Made by a program: the position numbers and the translations under genes. Under the pieces are notes generated by a model. That model saw only the letters and a program-made list of their open reading frames with translations, did not search any database and was not told the DNA's origin. DNA of 5,495 bases from Candidatus Desantisbacteria bacterium CG1_02_49_89 (GTDB lineage: Bacteria > Desantisbacteria > UBA1551): the NCBI GenBank assembly GCA_001871075.1, contig MNUP01000116.1, forward strand, positions 1 to 5,495. The letters are read 5' to 3'. Positions 112-5,495 of this stretch are shown here, piece by piece. Within the stretch, counting starts at the first letter, position 1; every line of letters starts with the position of its first letter.

Positions 112-3100
112 CAGGTATCCAGGTTCGTGTTTATGACCCCCCAGAGACAGGTTAAAGCCGGGGTGCCAACGGACGCAGTCACCATAGAAGCGCAGGACGA
201 GAACGGGCATATAGACAGCTCGTTCAGCGATTACGCGCTGCTTGGCACCGGTTCCGCGGCAGGCTGTTTCTCCCTGGACCAGGTTCCGTGGTCGAACATA
301 GGCGCTATAACCCTTGTTTCAGGCCAGGGAAGCTTCTACTACAAAGACGAATCCACAGGATATCCGGTCATAAGCGCTTCCAGAACAGACCTTTCAATGA
401 CCTCGGGCACGCAGGCAGAAACGATTGTGTTCGGCGCGATAAAAATGAAGATAACTTCCTCTCCTGGAAATGAAAGGGCTGGCTGGCCGATAAGCATGGC
501 TGTTCAGGCGCAGACAAACACAGGCGCGCTTGACCCGGGCATAACGGCTACCCCGGTTGATCTCGCGACCACTTCGGGTGACGGGCATTTCTCCGCAAGC
601 AGCACGGAATGGATAGACATAAACCAGGCTAACCTTGAATCAGGCCAGGCAGTATTCTACTACCTGGACCACAACCTGGGCTCACCCGTGATCACCGTTT
701 CAAAAACCGGATATTATTCCGATACGCAGGCGCAGACCATATATTACGGAGCTACAGGATTCAGCATTACCACGGAATTCAGGACCTTCATAGCCGGGCT
801 TTCCTCAGATTCCATAGCCGTTGAAGCCCTTACCGACGCAAGCCAGGTTGACACAACCTTTAACGGAACTGCAACGCTTTCCGCGTCTTCAAACAGCGGC
901 ACCTTCTCAACCAGCAAGACACAATGGTCTGACACGACAGCGCTCAGATTCTCTCAGGGAAAGGCCGTATTCTATTACAAAGACAGGATAATAGGCTCCC
1001 CGTCCATTACCGTGAGCAGAAATAACTATAATTCCGCTGCACAGGATCAGAGCGTTATTTACGGGGCAATAAAATTAAAAATAACGACGGCGCCCAAGGC
1101 CGCAAGGGCAGGATATCCTACCGATTATATCGCGGTCGCGGCCCTGACCGACGCGGATGATACCGACGTCAGCCAGAACGAGGCAATCTATCTCTACAGC
1201 ACTTCGGGGAACAGCGCTTCATTCTCAGCGAGCAGCACCGAGTGGGCTGACATCAACCAGGTCACACTCGTTAACGGCATCGGGATATTCTCTTACAAGA
1301 ACAAAAAAACAGGGCGGGCGGTAATAACGGTTTCACGGCCCGACCTGTACCCGTATTCGGACACGCAGGCGGAAACCGTAGCCTACGGCGCAATCAAATT
1401 CGCGATAAGAACCCCGGAGAGAACGGCAAAAGCCGGGATGCCCACCGCAATCATCCAGGCCGTGTCACAGACAGACACAGGCGAAACAGATGTAAGCTTT
1501 ACGGGGACCGCGGCGCTTATTACGACTTCCCTGAACGGATCTTTCTCAATAAGCAGCACCCAGTGGGCTGACACCAGCATAATAACCTTTACGTCAGGCA
1601 TCAGCCGGTTTTATTACATGGACGAAAACGACGGCAGGCCGACAATAACCGTGACCAGGGACGATTTCTATCCTGGCGGGCAGCAGGAAACCATCGCGTA
1701 CGGCGCGATAAAACTTGTGATAACTTCCGCAGCGAGGACAGCCAAAGCGGGCATTCCCGCGGATTCCATCACCGTTGAGGCGCAGACCAATAAGGGCGTG
1801 CTTGACACTTCCATAGGCGGGACCGTCGTGCTTTCCACAAGCTCGGGGAATTCCGGCTCGTTCTCGATCGACCGCGCGCTCTGGGCCAGCACAAGCACGA
1901 TCACTCTTTCAGGCGGCCAGGCAGCGTTCTACTATAAAGACCATAAAACAGGCGCGCCGGTTATCACGGCCAGCAGAAGCTCGTCCGACCTTTTGCCCGC
2001 AACCCAGACCGAAACCATAATCTACGGCGCCATTAAAATGAAGATCTCGTCACCTCCGAGAACAGTGTACGCCGGAACCGCTTCGGAATCGATCATAGTC
2101 CAGGCGCTGACCGATACTGACGCTGTTGATACCGGTTATAGCCAGCCGGTGACATTTACCGTTGAATCAGGACTGGGAACCTCGGAAATTTCCGCGGATA
2201 ACGGGATCTCATGGACACCCTATACCCTTGGTCTGAACTTTAACTGCGGCGAAACTTTTGTATATGTGAAAAACCTAAACTACGAAACCGCGGTGATCAC
2301 CGTAACAAACGCTGATTTTACCCCGGATTCTCAGGCAATAACCTTCACAGTTTCCCGCCTGGTGATCACCACTCTGCAGCAGACAGTTAAGGCGGGTTAC
2401 CCGACAGATTTCATAACAGTGGAAGCCAGGGATGAAAACGGGCGGCTGGACCCGAATTACGGCGGGACAGTAACCCTTTCCACGACTTCCAACACCGGCT
2501 TTTTCTCCGTGAACAGGTTCACATGGAAAAATACCACAACGATATTTCTCAGTGCCGGGGCAGCGTCGTTCTATTACAGGGATTTCGCGCCGGGAATCCC
2601 GGATATAACGGTCTCAAGGGAAGGGCTCATACCCGGAGTGCAACCGGTAACGATCGAATACGGCGCCTCAAAGCTTGCCATTATAACCCCGCAGAGAACG
2701 ATTGTTGCGGGCGCTATATCAGATTCTATGGTGATCCAGGCGCAGACCTGCACCGGGGCCCTTGACGCCGGTATAACCGGCGTGAACATCCAGCTGCTGA
2801 CCGCTTCTTCAACAGGCGCGTTCTCGGATACCAACGCTTTCTGGAACGAGCTGTCCCCGTCCGAAATAACACTTGTGGACGGCGAGGCGCGGGTATATTA
2901 TAAGGATTATTCCACCGGCGTTAAATTGATCAGCGCGGCAAGGGACGGGCTGCTTTCCGCGACACAGAACGAGACAATAGTTGCCGGCGCGATAAAACTG
3001 AAAATAACCACCGCAGGAAAAACAATCAGGGCAGGGGACGTTTCAACCGCGGTCAACATCCAGGCATGGACCTGCGCTGACGCCCTATACGCGTCTTATC

Positions 3101-5495
3101 CGGCAGCGAACACGATAACGCTTTATACGAGCAGCGAAAGCGGCCAGTTCTCGACCACAGGCAGCCCTCCATGGAACCCCAGCGGCTGCACGATCACCCT
3201 CGCGGGCGGGCAGCGTAATGTTTTCTACAGGGATTTCCTGATGGGCAGGCCTGTGATCACGGTAACGCGGTACAACGCTGACCTCGCGCCTGACTACCAG
3301 GAAGAAACAATAACTTCCTCAAAGCTCAAGATCACTTCCCCTTCAAGGACGGCAAAAGCCGGTCTGCCCACTGACAGCATCACTGTCGAGGTCTGGGATG
3401 AGGCAGGCAATTTTGACGGGACATTCAGCGGGACAGCAGCGCTTTCTTCGTCATCGGTGACAACGCCGACATTCTCGGTCAGCCAGACAAGCTGGATAAA
3501 CGTCACCGTCATTAATATCGTGAACGGGAGAACGCTCTTTTATTACAAGGACAAAGGGAGCGGAAGCCCCAATATAATCCTGACAAACTCCTACCTGCGG
3601 TCTGATTCACAGGTGCAGACAATAACGGGCGGCGCGATAAGGCTCCAGTTCAAACCTGTTGCATCGACAAAAGCCGGGTCCCCGACAAACGAAATAACCC
3701 TGCAGGCAACGTCAGACACGGGGCTGATGGACGTATCCTGGAACTGCACCGTTTCGCTGTTCAACACCACCGGGAATTCAGGTTCCTTCTCAGTAACGCA
3801 CAATCCCTGGGTTAATACAAGCGTTATAACGCTGTCAAACGGGGAAGTAAAGCTGTATTACAAGGACAGGAAAACAGGCCAGTCAAAAATAAGCGGGTAC
3901 GCGTATGACCTGCTGCCCGACACTCTGACCGTGACCATCCTTTACGGGGCAATAAAACTGAAGATCGAGAACGATACCCAGGTGATCACGATAACCCCGT
4001 ATTCGCCTTCCGGAGCCATTAAGGCGTTCGCCCTGACAGACACCAACGATATAGACAAGACCTACTCGGAAACGGTTGTCTGGATAACCGACGGCCCGAA
4101 CGGGTGTTTCAACGACCAGTATGTCCCGATCACAGATCCTTCATGGGACAACACGGGCGCAATTTCATTAAAAACGATACAGGGCGTGTGCACGATCTAC
4201 TACAAGGATATCGACCTGGGCACAAGGACACTGACCGCAAGTATATGGAATAACACGTTCAACCCCGACACCCTGACAGTAAGGGTGCAAAGGGGCGTGC
4301 CTGCGATCCAGAACGCTTCCGCAAGTCCTTACTGGTTCAGCCCGGACGCGAGCGGCTGGAAAGACACTTCCGTTATTTCATATTACCTTAAGGATGAGGA
4401 CGATGTTGCTGACAGCGTTATTATTCATATATATGACAAACTGGGCAATACCATAACAACGCTTGTGAACGGCCAGACCAGGATAACCAATACCTATTCC
4501 TATCAAACGTGGAACGGGACAGGGAACACCGGCGAGGACACCTACTACGCGTGGATAGACGCGTTCGACCCGACAGGCCTGAGGGCTTCCGATTACGGCA
4601 ACGCGGACAGCTGCTTTATTGAAATTGACCTTGCGGCACCTTATACCGGTTCAGTGTTCATCAACAACAACGCTCAATACGCTGACAACGTCGTCGTAAC
4701 GCTAAGCCTTTCTTCCGCTGACACACTCTCAGGCGTCGGGGAAGTGCTTGCAAGCAATAACCCCGGGTTCGCAGGCGCGCAAGTCCTTCCGTATTCCTCG
4801 CAGGTGACCTGGACCCTCGCGGGGAACGATACGCAGGTCGTTTACGCGCGGTTCATGGACCTTGCGGGAAATATGTCCGCGGTTTACAGCGACACGATAT
4901 TTATCGACACAGGCCCGCCCAGGATCGCGTGGACAGACCCGTTCAGCGGCGAAACCGACGTTTATTACCTGACAAATGTTATCGCGCAATTCACGAAAAG
5001 AATGGAAGTTTCGACCATCAACACGGACACTGTCAGGATGTCTTATGTTGTCGGCACACAGATATATTACGTCACGGGGACCATATCTTACAACTCTATA
5101 AGCTTCCAGGTAACCTTCGACCCGTCAATAACGCTTACATACCTGAGAACTTATAATATGACAATCTACGGCGGAGGCACGGGTGTCAAGGACATATTCG
5201 GCACACCAATGGCAAGCCATTACACCTGGCCCTTTACGGTGGGTATTGAAGACGACACCCCGCCCTGGGGCTGGGTCAAGATCAACAACGGCAACCCGTA
5301 CACGAACACCTCGCCCGTCGCTTTGTACATCTACGGCGCTGACACGCACGGCTACGTGGCAACAGTCTGGATAGGGGATTCTCCGGGCATAGGCCTGGCA
5401 AATATCCTGTGCAACAGCAATCCTTTCACCGGGATAATAAGCTGGCCGGTAAAAGGGCTTACGACAGGCGAAAGCGACGCGCTCAGGACGGTATA
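1..5495 (+). CDS. Giant multi-domain Ig-like repeat protein, probable surface or secreted protein (partial at both ends)
   Basis: Frame 1 is open for 1,831 codons with no stop, so this is an internal piece of a single gene whose start and stop both lie outside. The product is mostly tandem beta-rich modules: a repeat tail (residues 1-37), thirteen repeats of about 106 residues (38-1431), a FlgD-like Ig module (1432-1546), an Ig-like module (1547-1638), a Big_5/SbsA-like module (1639-1752) and the start of another Ig-like module (1753-1831). Composition is rich in Thr, Ser, Gly, Asp and Ala and has only 10 Cys, as expected for an exported protein. No signal peptide, membrane helix, enzyme motif or C-terminal sorting signal is visible, and both ends where the first and last would lie are missing. 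I infer an extracellular fibre, adhesin or structural role from the architecture. The repeat family is not one I can name with certainty. Arg is mostly AGG/AGA and Ile mostly ATA throughout, with no sign that part of the gene has a different origin. Confidence 0.93.
112..432 (+). repeat. Repeat unit 1 (107 residues, Ig-like)
   Basis: Residues 38-144. The GAIK start is replaced by QVSR. Key landmarks are KAGVPTD (52-58), a DENG turn (70-73), Trp97 and FYYKD (112-116), followed by GYPVISASR. It carries one of the few cysteines (Cys89, just before the FS pair). The DENG type of central turn is shared with unit 8, seven units downstream. Confidence 0.85.
433..747 (+). repeat. Repeat unit 2 (105 residues, Ig-like)
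   Basis: Residues 145-249, starting with GAIKMKIT. The AGxPTD segment is altered to AGWPISM (160-166). It has the turn QTNTGALD, Trp204 and FYYLD (219-223), where Leu replaces the usual Lys, then GSPVITVSK. Its QTxTGALDxGIT stretch is strikingly close to unit 9, whereas its FSASSTEWxDINQ stretch is close to unit 4, which suggests exchange between units. Confidence 0.87.
748..1062 (+). repeat. Repeat unit 3 (105 residues, Ig-like)
   Basis: Residues 250-354. It starts GATGFSIT instead of GAIKxKIT and has AGLSSDSIAVEA in place of AGxPTDxITVEA. The central turn is of the LTDAxxxD type (residues 277-284). Trp309 precedes FYYKD (324-328) by 15 residues, followed by GSPSITVSR. Confidence 0.86.
1063..1386 (+). 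repeat. Repeat unit 4 (108 residues, Ig-like)
   Basis: Residues 355-462. It has GAIKLKIT, AGYPTDYIAV (370-379) and an acidic turn with Asp at 384, 386, 387 and 389. Trp415 is followed after 15 residues by FSYKN (430-434), the most altered FYYKD motif apart from unit 7. The GxPxITVSR segment is present as GRAVITVSR, without the Pro. The unit is about three residues longer around the acidic turn than the 105-residue units. Confidence 0.85.
1387..1701 (+). repeat. Repeat unit 5 (105 residues, Ig-like)
   Basis: Residues 463-567. It has GAIKFAIR and RTAKAGMPT (474-482), but the usual DxITVEA is replaced by AIIQAVS. The turn is QTDTGETD. Trp522 is followed by FYYMD (537-541), with Met for Lys, and GRPTITVTR. 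The strand before FS reads as a typical TAAL-type beta strand. Confidence 0.86.
1702..2025 (+). repeat. Repeat unit 6 (108 residues, Ig-like), close to consensus
   Basis: Residues 568-675. Nearly every landmark is in its consensus form: GAIK, RTAKAGIPADSITVEAQT, GTVVLSTSS, SGSFS, Trp628, ITLSGGQAAFYYKD (ending at 647) and GAPVITASR, closing with TQTETI. This is the best unit for building a family profile. The extra residues compared with 105-residue units lie in the SSSDLLP loop after the ITASR strand. Confidence 0.88.
2026..2346 (+). repeat. Repeat unit 7 (107 residues, Ig-like), divergent second half
   Basis: Residues 676-782. The first half is normal: GAIKMKIS, RTVYAGTASESIIVQALTD and an acidic DTDAVD turn (705-710). 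The second half departs from the family. The G-FS segment is replaced by TSEISADNGISW with Trp738. The FYYKD motif becomes FVYVKN (753-758), and GxPxITVSR becomes YETAVITVTN. Cys749 sits just before the degenerate motif. Spacing from Trp to the motif is still 15 residues. Confidence 0.82.
2347..2661 (+). repeat. Repeat unit 8 (105 residues, Ig-like)
   Basis: Residues 783-887. GAIK is replaced by TVSR, as in unit 1 (QVSR). It then has KAGYPTDFITVEARDENGRLD, GGTVTLSTTS, Trp842, FYYRD (857-861) and GIPDITVSR. Sharing both the xVSR start and the DENG turn with unit 1 points to a common origin of the two units. Confidence 0.87.
2662..2985 (+). repeat. Repeat unit 9 (108 residues, Ig-like)
   Basis: Residues 888-995. 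It starts GASKLAIITPQRT and has VAGAISDSMVIQAQT, with the QTCTGALD turn carrying Cys917. Trp948 is followed by VYYKD (965-969), 17 residues later instead of 15 because of a two-residue insertion at ELSPSEIT. GVKLISAAR replaces GxPxITVSR. The unit closely resembles unit 2 in its central turn. Confidence 0.85.
2986..3312 (+). repeat. Repeat unit 10 (109 residues, Ig-like)
   Basis: Residues 996-1104. It has GAIKLKITTAGKTIRAG, then DVSTAVNIQAWTCADAL, with Cys1025. The PTDxITVEA segment is therefore altered. Trp1058 is followed by VFYRD (1074-1078) and GRPVITVTR. A second cysteine, Cys1063, lies between Trp and the motif. This and unit 13 are the only units with two cysteines, so an internal disulfide is possible but unproven. 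Confidence 0.84.
3313..3630 (+). repeat. Repeat unit 11 (106 residues, Ig-like)
   Basis: Residues 1105-1210. GAIK is replaced by TSSK, followed by RTAKAGLPTDSITVEVWDEAG, a consensus AGxPTD segment with a DEAG turn related to the DENG turn of units 1 and 8. Trp1165 is followed by FYYKD (1180-1184), then GSPNIILTN, which has lost the ITVSR form. Confidence 0.87.
3631..3945 (+). repeat. Repeat unit 12 (105 residues, Ig-like)
   Basis: Residues 1211-1315. It has GAIRLQFK and TKAGSPTNEITLQATSDTG (from 1223). One residue is missing between the GAIR start and KAG compared with the other units. Cys1249 lies in the strand after the turn. Trp1270 is followed by LYYKD (1285-1289). The usual GxPxITVSR is weakened to GQSKISGYA, and the unit ends in DTLTVTI, the same ending as unit 13. 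Confidence 0.86.
3946..4293 (+). repeat. Repeat unit 13 (116 residues, Ig-like), last and degenerate
   Basis: Residues 1316-1431. The GAIKLKI start is kept, but the KAGxPTD segment is lost, being replaced by a VITITPYSPSG stretch. An LTDTNDID turn (1345-1352) follows. Cys1369 and Cys1397 flank Trp1382, which precedes IYYKD (1399-1403) by 17 residues. GTRTLTASI replaces GxPxITVSR. The unit is the longest and least regular, as often seen at the edge of a repeat array next to a different module. Confidence 0.8.
4294..4638 (+). other. Protein domain: FlgD-type Ig-like module
   Basis: Residues 1432-1546. The pattern IYDKLGNTITTLVNG (1477-1491), a spacer, WNGTGNTGEDTYYAWIDA (1504-1521) and DPTG (1523-1526) is the typical strand-turn layout of the FlgD Ig-like fold: a 'D..G..v.tL..G' hairpin, then W-N/D-G-x-[DG]-x-x-G and a [TY]YY-x-[WI]xA[FT]D strand. 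The module is commonly found in large exported bacterial proteins, usually near the C-terminus. About 40 residues before it (KDEDDVADS, 1464-1472) form the first strand and an acidic loop. One cysteine (Cys1538) follows the core. Confidence 0.6.
4639..4914 (+). other. Protein domain: Ig-like module of the 'INNG..YT' type, first copy
   Basis: Residues 1547-1638. It starts APYTGSVFINNNAQY and contains VVVTLSLSSADTLSGVG, SNNPGF, WTL (1604-1606), VVYARFMDLAGNMS (1613-1626) and DTIFIDTGPP. The order 'IN.G..Y....V.L.L.A.D..SG......SN...F....W.L..G....VY..F.D.AGN.S......I..D...P' is a known pattern of small all-beta domains repeated in secreted bacterial proteins. The DTGPP end is the Pro-rich joint to the next module. 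Confidence 0.6.
4915..5256 (+). other. Protein domain: Big_5/SbsA-like Ig module
   Basis: Residues 1639-1752. The stretch PPRIAWTDPFSGETDV, VIAQFTKRMEVSTINTDTV, VTGTISYNSISFQVTFDPS, YNMTIYGGG, VKDIFGTPMAS and WPFTVG follows the strand pattern of bacterial Ig-like Big_5 domains: 'P.V..T.P..G...V.....I...F...M...S', a 'G.V.Y......F.P' hairpin, 'Y.V.I..G..D..G...' and a W.F.. end. The family is found in S-layer and other surface proteins. Each strand pair is visible, but the identification is from pattern memory rather than a profile score. Confidence 0.62.
5257..5495 (+). other. Protein domain: second Ig-like module of the 'INNG..YT' type, cut by the window edge
   Basis: Residues 1753-1831. 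TPPWGWVKINNGNPYTNTSPVALYIYGAD (from 1753) repeats the layout of the module at residues 1547-1638: VFINNNAQY aligns with VKINNGNPY and TLSLSSAD with ALYIYGAD. The following WIGDSPG and WPVKG also fall at the expected SN... and WxL places. The [VY]xxFxDxAGN strand expected next is not reached, so the protein continues downstream with at least the end of this module. Confidence 0.6.

Follow-up and report, generated by a model that had tools for sequence, protein, structure and literature searches.

The window, the whole stretch of DNA analyzed here (5,495 nt), is the entire contig C62 of a 2.48 Mb genome in 150 contigs. A single reading frame runs uninterrupted through the contig's 1,831 codons and is open at both ends. 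Along this frame, on the forward strand, lie 13 full units of 105–112 residues each (aa 41–1430, nt 121–4290), in agreement with the preliminary description, which had noticed 13 tandem repeats of about 106 residues. A profile built from the 13 units recovers each of them at E ≤ 1e-29. It also identifies an extra half unit before unit 1, absent from the earlier count: the C-terminal half of a unit at positions 1–120 (aa 1–40; 34.9 bits, E 1e-11), cut by the contig start. The array is not a product of chance, as the same profile finds about 96 units on 19 contigs when the whole genome is searched.

Units 1 to 4 occupy positions 121–441 (unit HMM score 129.9 bits, supported by the alignment), 442–756 (123.3 bits), 757–1071 (125.9 bits) and 1072–1395 (127.6 bits). 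Unit 5 (1396–1710, 131.6 bits) is followed by the most typical copy, unit 6 (1711–2034, 138.8 bits), and then by the divergent unit 7 (2035–2355, 104.0 bits), in which FVYVK replaces the FYYKD motif of the other copies. The remaining units lie at 2356–2670 (unit 8, 131.9 bits), 2671–2994 (unit 9, 119.7 bits), 2995–3321 (unit 10, 110.0 bits), 3322–3636 (unit 11, 127.2 bits), 3637–3954 (unit 12, 126.5 bits) and 3955–4290 (unit 13, 94.6 bits), the last being the most divergent of all.

Beyond the array the frame continues into other modules, all on the forward strand. Positions 4300–4635 encode a beta-type module that is not a unit and has no library match; on reading the sequence by eye it resembles the Ig-like domain of FlgD. 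An OmpL47-like domain at 4690–4899 stays under the curated cut-off (NCBIfam NF047446, E 8.7e-6, 26.1 bits against a cut-off of 40), and a bacterial Ig-like domain of the Big_5 type at 4906–5238 lies above its cut-off (PF13205, E 1.4e-11). After Big_5, positions 5248–5493 look by eye like another OmpL47-like module, cut by the contig end. No binding module adjoining the 13 units was seen within the window. The window would be an internal piece of a very large protein that is probably secreted and exposed on the surface.

A FYYKD-type motif starts at residues 112, 219, 324, 430, 537, 643, 753, 857, 965, 1074, 1180, 1285 and 1399, and is preceded in every unit by a Trp, at residues 97, 204, 309, 415, 522, 628, 738, 842, 948, 1058, 1165, 1270 and 1382. 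As the preliminary description had stated, the spacing is 15 residues in ten units; units 9, 10 and 13 have 17, 16 and 17. Since the units are homologous, the conserved spacing is not independent evidence. All 13 units share the Trp and one Gly (position 69 of unit 6) without exception, and A13, G14, D32, F51, S52, Y75, G81 and I85 (unit 6 numbering) are nearly invariant. Mean pairwise identity is 35%, with units 7 and 13 the most divergent. Tandem Repeats Finder detects no array in the window DNA, indicating that the array is old and its domains have diverged, and that it does not stem from a recent burst of near-identical copies. Among the 98 matches with a recognizable motif in the wider family, 71 have a spacing of 15 and 23 a spacing of 16–18, and four have no Trp. 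Distant relatives retain F51 and the F, Y, D and G of FYYKD...G but sometimes lack the Trp. The strict Trp spacing therefore characterizes the subgroup and not the family as a whole.

Predicted fold and relation to known Ig-like families

Unit 6 was modelled with AlphaFold using an alignment of 103 related units, a set that includes three second copies of units from contig C58 owing to overlapping fetches. The model is all beta, with ten short strands (mean pLDDT 95.3, pTM 0.86). By DSSP, the FYYKD motif follows the invariant Gly as strand two of a hairpin, and the loop leading into this hairpin holds the Trp. A model of units 5 and 6 as a pair (pLDDT 96.9, pTM 0.84) shows no drop at the joint, with the caveat that pTM is no proof of rigidity in solution.

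The top structural neighbor of unit 6 is the C-terminal Ig-like domain of a GH2 protein (9bey; Z 12.6, rmsd 2.0 Å over 96 residues). Other neighbors include invasin (1cwv, Z 10.6), intimin D00-D0 (Z 9.9) and domains of the S-layer proteins SbsC and SbsB (Z 9–10; SbsC at Z 10). For the pair model, Foldseek ranks intimin D0-D1 first (E 5e-8), and with VIA-align the two units fall on tandem domains of invasin, intimin, FdeC and LigA, with SbsC also listed. These pair superpositions have rmsd values of 4.6–15 Å, indicating that the angle between units differs from that in known rods. The confident all-beta model and the invasin and intimin Z scores bear out the earlier suggestion of an invasin/Big-type beta sandwich.

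The same description had raised the possibility of a new or poorly described family. In Pfam, none of the 103 units reached any cut-off, and neither NCBIfam nor PHROGs names them. Below threshold, the most frequent bacterial-Ig matches are Big_1, Glyco_hydro2_C5 and Big_13, with Invasin_D3 also appearing; none is better than E 0.003. Big_1 (PF02369) passes its gathering cut-off in none of the 103 units (best E 0.0033; six units with E up to 1). Glyco_hydro2_C5 (PF18565) reaches at most 22 bits in this genome against a cut-off of 32, and no GH2 catalytic domain is present in the window or in the sister proteins scanned. The suspicion of a poorly described family is thus borne out, but the family is not isolated: structure, profile-profile comparison and the sub-threshold matches to Big_1, Invasin_D3 and Glyco_hydro2_C5 place it in the invasin/Big-type superfamily. 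In our reading, the units constitute a separate, divergent and uncatalogued family within the invasin/Big_1/GH2-C5 superfamily, not a new fold.

We asked how this reading compares with a simpler one, in which the units are ordinary members of Big_1 or Invasin_D3 (PF09134) overlooked by the Pfam models. The predicted fold is of the Big_1 type, and both kinds of domain are used in tandem in extended surface proteins. Moreover, hhalign aligns the unit profile in register over 73 columns with a profile built from 58 Big_1 domains of the sister proteins. The score of 21.3 exceeds those of 100 column-shuffled controls (9.5 ± 2.0, maximum 15.9) and of the reversed profile (12.9), but the HH probability is just 15%, which makes the relation a distant one. 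The Big_1 profile drawn from these very proteins matches none of the units, just as the Pfam models leave all 103 under the curated cut-off. The conserved patterns differ as well, F-S...W...G...FYYKD...G.P.ITV...Q in the units versus D.NG.P...TD.NG.A in Big_1. Finally, the two domain types stand side by side at fixed, different places in the same cassettes, which argues for separate lineages in this genome. We therefore regard plain Big_1 or Invasin_D3 membership as somewhat unlikely. Glyco_hydro2_C5 resembles the units as the best structural match and through weak sequence matches to a few of them, but it is a domain on the C-terminal side of GH2 enzymes, not found in long arrays, and no unit passes its cut-off.

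Several other matches were set aside. The best PDB matches of the 103-row profile are antibody variable domains (E 0.002–0.01), through ISSG..YYADSVKGRFTIS-like stretches; we read these as chance similarity between Ig strands and not as kinship. Matches to KPP10_Orf10, GH35, ATP synthase epsilon and a phage esterase are single, partial and under cut-off.

A paralogous array and the module grammar of sister proteins

A paralog of the window gene lies on contig C70 (G000:C70, L009). Its N-terminus is a signal-peptide-like sequence, after which come Big_1 and a binding module. Both proteins differ from the sister proteins in having a long uninterrupted run of units. Window units 1–8 find their best matches in C70 units 5–12 in order, 8 of 8 on the diagonal, with 52–69% identity, indicating that the units had already diverged when the whole array was duplicated as one block. 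Overall identity is 60% in protein and 64% in DNA, and 71, 75 and 45% at codon positions 1, 2 and 3 (dN 0.31, dS near 2); purifying selection is evident at the protein level.

The window opens with 74 nt identical to positions 3657–3730 of C70, beyond which identity falls to about 64%. This pattern points to either an assembly fork or a recent gene-conversion tract where the contig begins, and the boundary of the window's contig may be artificial. One could read the identical stretch with the divergence after it, together with the one-to-one unit order, as a sign that contig C62 is a strain variant or a collapsed copy of the C70 gene instead of a second gene. Divergence of the size measured here goes far beyond strain variation, however, and we consider a variant or collapsed copy quite improbable. 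Both contigs are unclosed.

The arrangement of modules in the sister proteins was analyzed with profiles for the unit (U), Big_1 (B), a CBM-type jelly roll (C), LamG (L) and a C-terminal domain (T). In this genome, whose unit-bearing proteins reach about 5,300 residues, most of the large proteins follow the order B-C-U-B-L-U-…-U-U-T. That is, a cassette of Big_1, a carbohydrate-binding or LamG module and a unit is repeated n times, followed by one or more further units and a DUF11-like C-terminus. In 28 open frames, the next domain after a LamG or CBM-type module is a unit in 44 cases and something else in three, and the next domain after a unit is T in 15 cases; overlapping fetches double a few of these counts. 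The units are subtyped by position and are most like units from a matching context in other proteins: nearest neighbors agree on the following domain at a rate of 0.69, versus 0.31 by chance and a shuffle maximum of 0.49. GH20, WbsX/GH99-like and 3-keto-disaccharide-hydrolase-like domains occur in the same proteins as the units. What is new here is this genome-wide cassette grammar in Candidatus Desantisbacteria.

Two giant open frames, G000:C58 (L013, about 5,280 aa) and G000:C21 (L012, about 4,275 aa), combine GH20 or WbsX/GH99-like domains, several LamG modules, Big_1 and the FYYKD unit. The DUF11-like domain makes up the last ~125 residues and usually ends in ..KGLRW..LG...IRFRVRVK at the stop codon (L012, L013, L010, L011, L026, L024 and others). 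Most unit-bearing proteins, both in this genome and in G001, an order-mate Candidatus Desantisbacteria genome, end with this domain, which is possibly a sorting or anchoring signal.

Proposed role as a stalk or spacer

We think it likely that the window encodes an internal piece of a giant, probably secreted surface protein of an uncultured, deep-branching Candidatus Desantisbacteria bacterium, in which the 13 units serve as a stiff rod or spacer, forming a long stalk. The predicted invasin/Big-type sandwiches are joined almost without linkers (...ETIxYGAIKxKIT...), and with such joints the units should stack into an extended rod, several tens of nanometres long if typical Ig-domain lengths apply. 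In the sister proteins, the unit sits directly behind a carbohydrate-binding module in the Big_1–binding module–unit cassette, near glycosidase-like domains, where, as a stiff spacer, it would hold the binding and catalytic modules apart and give them their orientation. On this view, a long run of pure spacer is present in the window protein and in the C70 paralog. As the block occurs about 100 times in the genome, usually right behind sugar-binding modules, it is probably a rigid spacer, and its most likely role is as the stalk or spacer of secreted proteins that bind or degrade glycans. Several points favor a stiff spacer: the fold is predicted with confidence, the joints have almost no linker, the units have a fixed place behind binding modules, the paralog has a signal-like N-terminus, and intimin and other stalk proteins set a precedent. 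The unit family is an Ig-like domain of a well-known superfamily and would play the usual role of such domains. The analysis itself shows the units, their predicted fold, the module grammar, the expansion and the purifying selection, whereas surface location, rod shape, spacer function and the glycan substrate are inferred.

The Big domains of intimin are described as rigid and extended, and those of the passenger rods of intimin and invasin, both inverse autotransporters, are likewise arranged in tandem with short joints to form an extended stalk (PMC7718877). The D0-D1 joint of intimin is described as flexible (PMC7718877), so tandem Big domains are not always stiff. The arrays described here differ from intimin and invasin in belonging to another domain family and to a candidate phylum rather than to enterobacteria, and no inverse-autotransporter barrel or tip lectin was seen. 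No outer-membrane beta barrel was found in C70, whose signal-like N-terminus leads into Big_1; the N-terminus of the window gene itself lies off the contig. Globular repeats with short rigid linkers are known to give rods (PMC9704523). Periscope proteins resemble the present arrays as single-chain stalks of independently folding repeats with short joints (PMC9704523), but their repeats are near-identical in DNA and vary in number, in contrast to the diverged units of the window.

The main functional alternative is that the units bind ligands, in particular glycans, through a surface formed by the Trp and the Tyr pair of the aromatic strand, so that the array would provide avidity instead of length. 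Aromatic residues are among the most conserved positions, the best structural neighbors are C-terminal Ig-like domains of glycosidases, and the units share their proteins with glycosidases and LamG/CBM modules. In those proteins, however, dedicated binding modules already precede each unit. The Trp is dispensable in distant relatives, unit 7 keeps its place without the FYYKD motif, and when a small sandwich conserves aromatic and Gly residues, their role is more often structural. Glycan binding by the units themselves therefore appears improbable. Still less probable, and in our estimate very unlikely, is that the long Ig array belongs to an S-layer, a two-dimensional lattice on the surface and not a stalk for binding modules. 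The SbsC and SbsB neighbors would fit such a lattice, but the units occur in a wide variety of large genes, on 19 contigs, that also encode glycosidase- and lectin-type modules, which does not fit a single lattice protein, and no SLH or other S-layer anchor was found in the proteins scanned.

Going beyond the spacer role, we tentatively raise the possibility, itself less likely than not, that in a Desantisbacteria-specific set of giant secreted proteins for glycan processing, this distinct, uncatalogued Ig-like family is a partner that carbohydrate-binding modules must have on their C-terminal side. If so, the position-specific subtypes and the shared DUF11-like domain would mark all members of an extracellular machinery. 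The cassette grammar and the common C-terminal domain in any case provide a testable list of extracellular glycan-handling proteins for Candidatus Desantisbacteria, to our knowledge a phylum without a cultured member.

Occurrence in other bacteria

A search with the whole window protein against genome contigs returned no matches; tighter alignment found relatives. Viral contigs and phage records yielded no relatives, and a literature search on the motif or such giant proteins returned nothing relevant. The G001 genome contains eight units, and one of its contigs, of 13,252 nt, carries the same kind of unit. The protein search yielded a unit-bearing record from Candidatus Desantisbacteria bacterium CG1_02_38_46. 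A broad sample of 241 genomes contains 12 with one or more units at E ≤ 1e-5, and the sparse relatives with named hosts come from Omnitrophota, Chloroflexi, Poribacteria and Patescibacteria. One profile thus finds units of the proposed FYYKD Ig-like family, claimed by no Pfam family, in several phyla. A family left blank by current libraries is now named and bounded in giant proteins of uncultured bacteria, and its profile annotates about a hundred otherwise anonymous stretches in one genome.

In an unclassified bacterium, a 3,866-residue open frame (JAJYBE010000017.1, L043, positions 1–11598) contains LamG, DUF2341 and TIG domains and, behind them, a long array of distant FYYKD units. This array is an independent example of array expansion. 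In Omnitrophota-type proteins (L040, L041 and L054), a single unit precedes a DUF6701 region, found by Pfam in L041; DUF6701 is a domain known from MSHA-pilus-related proteins.
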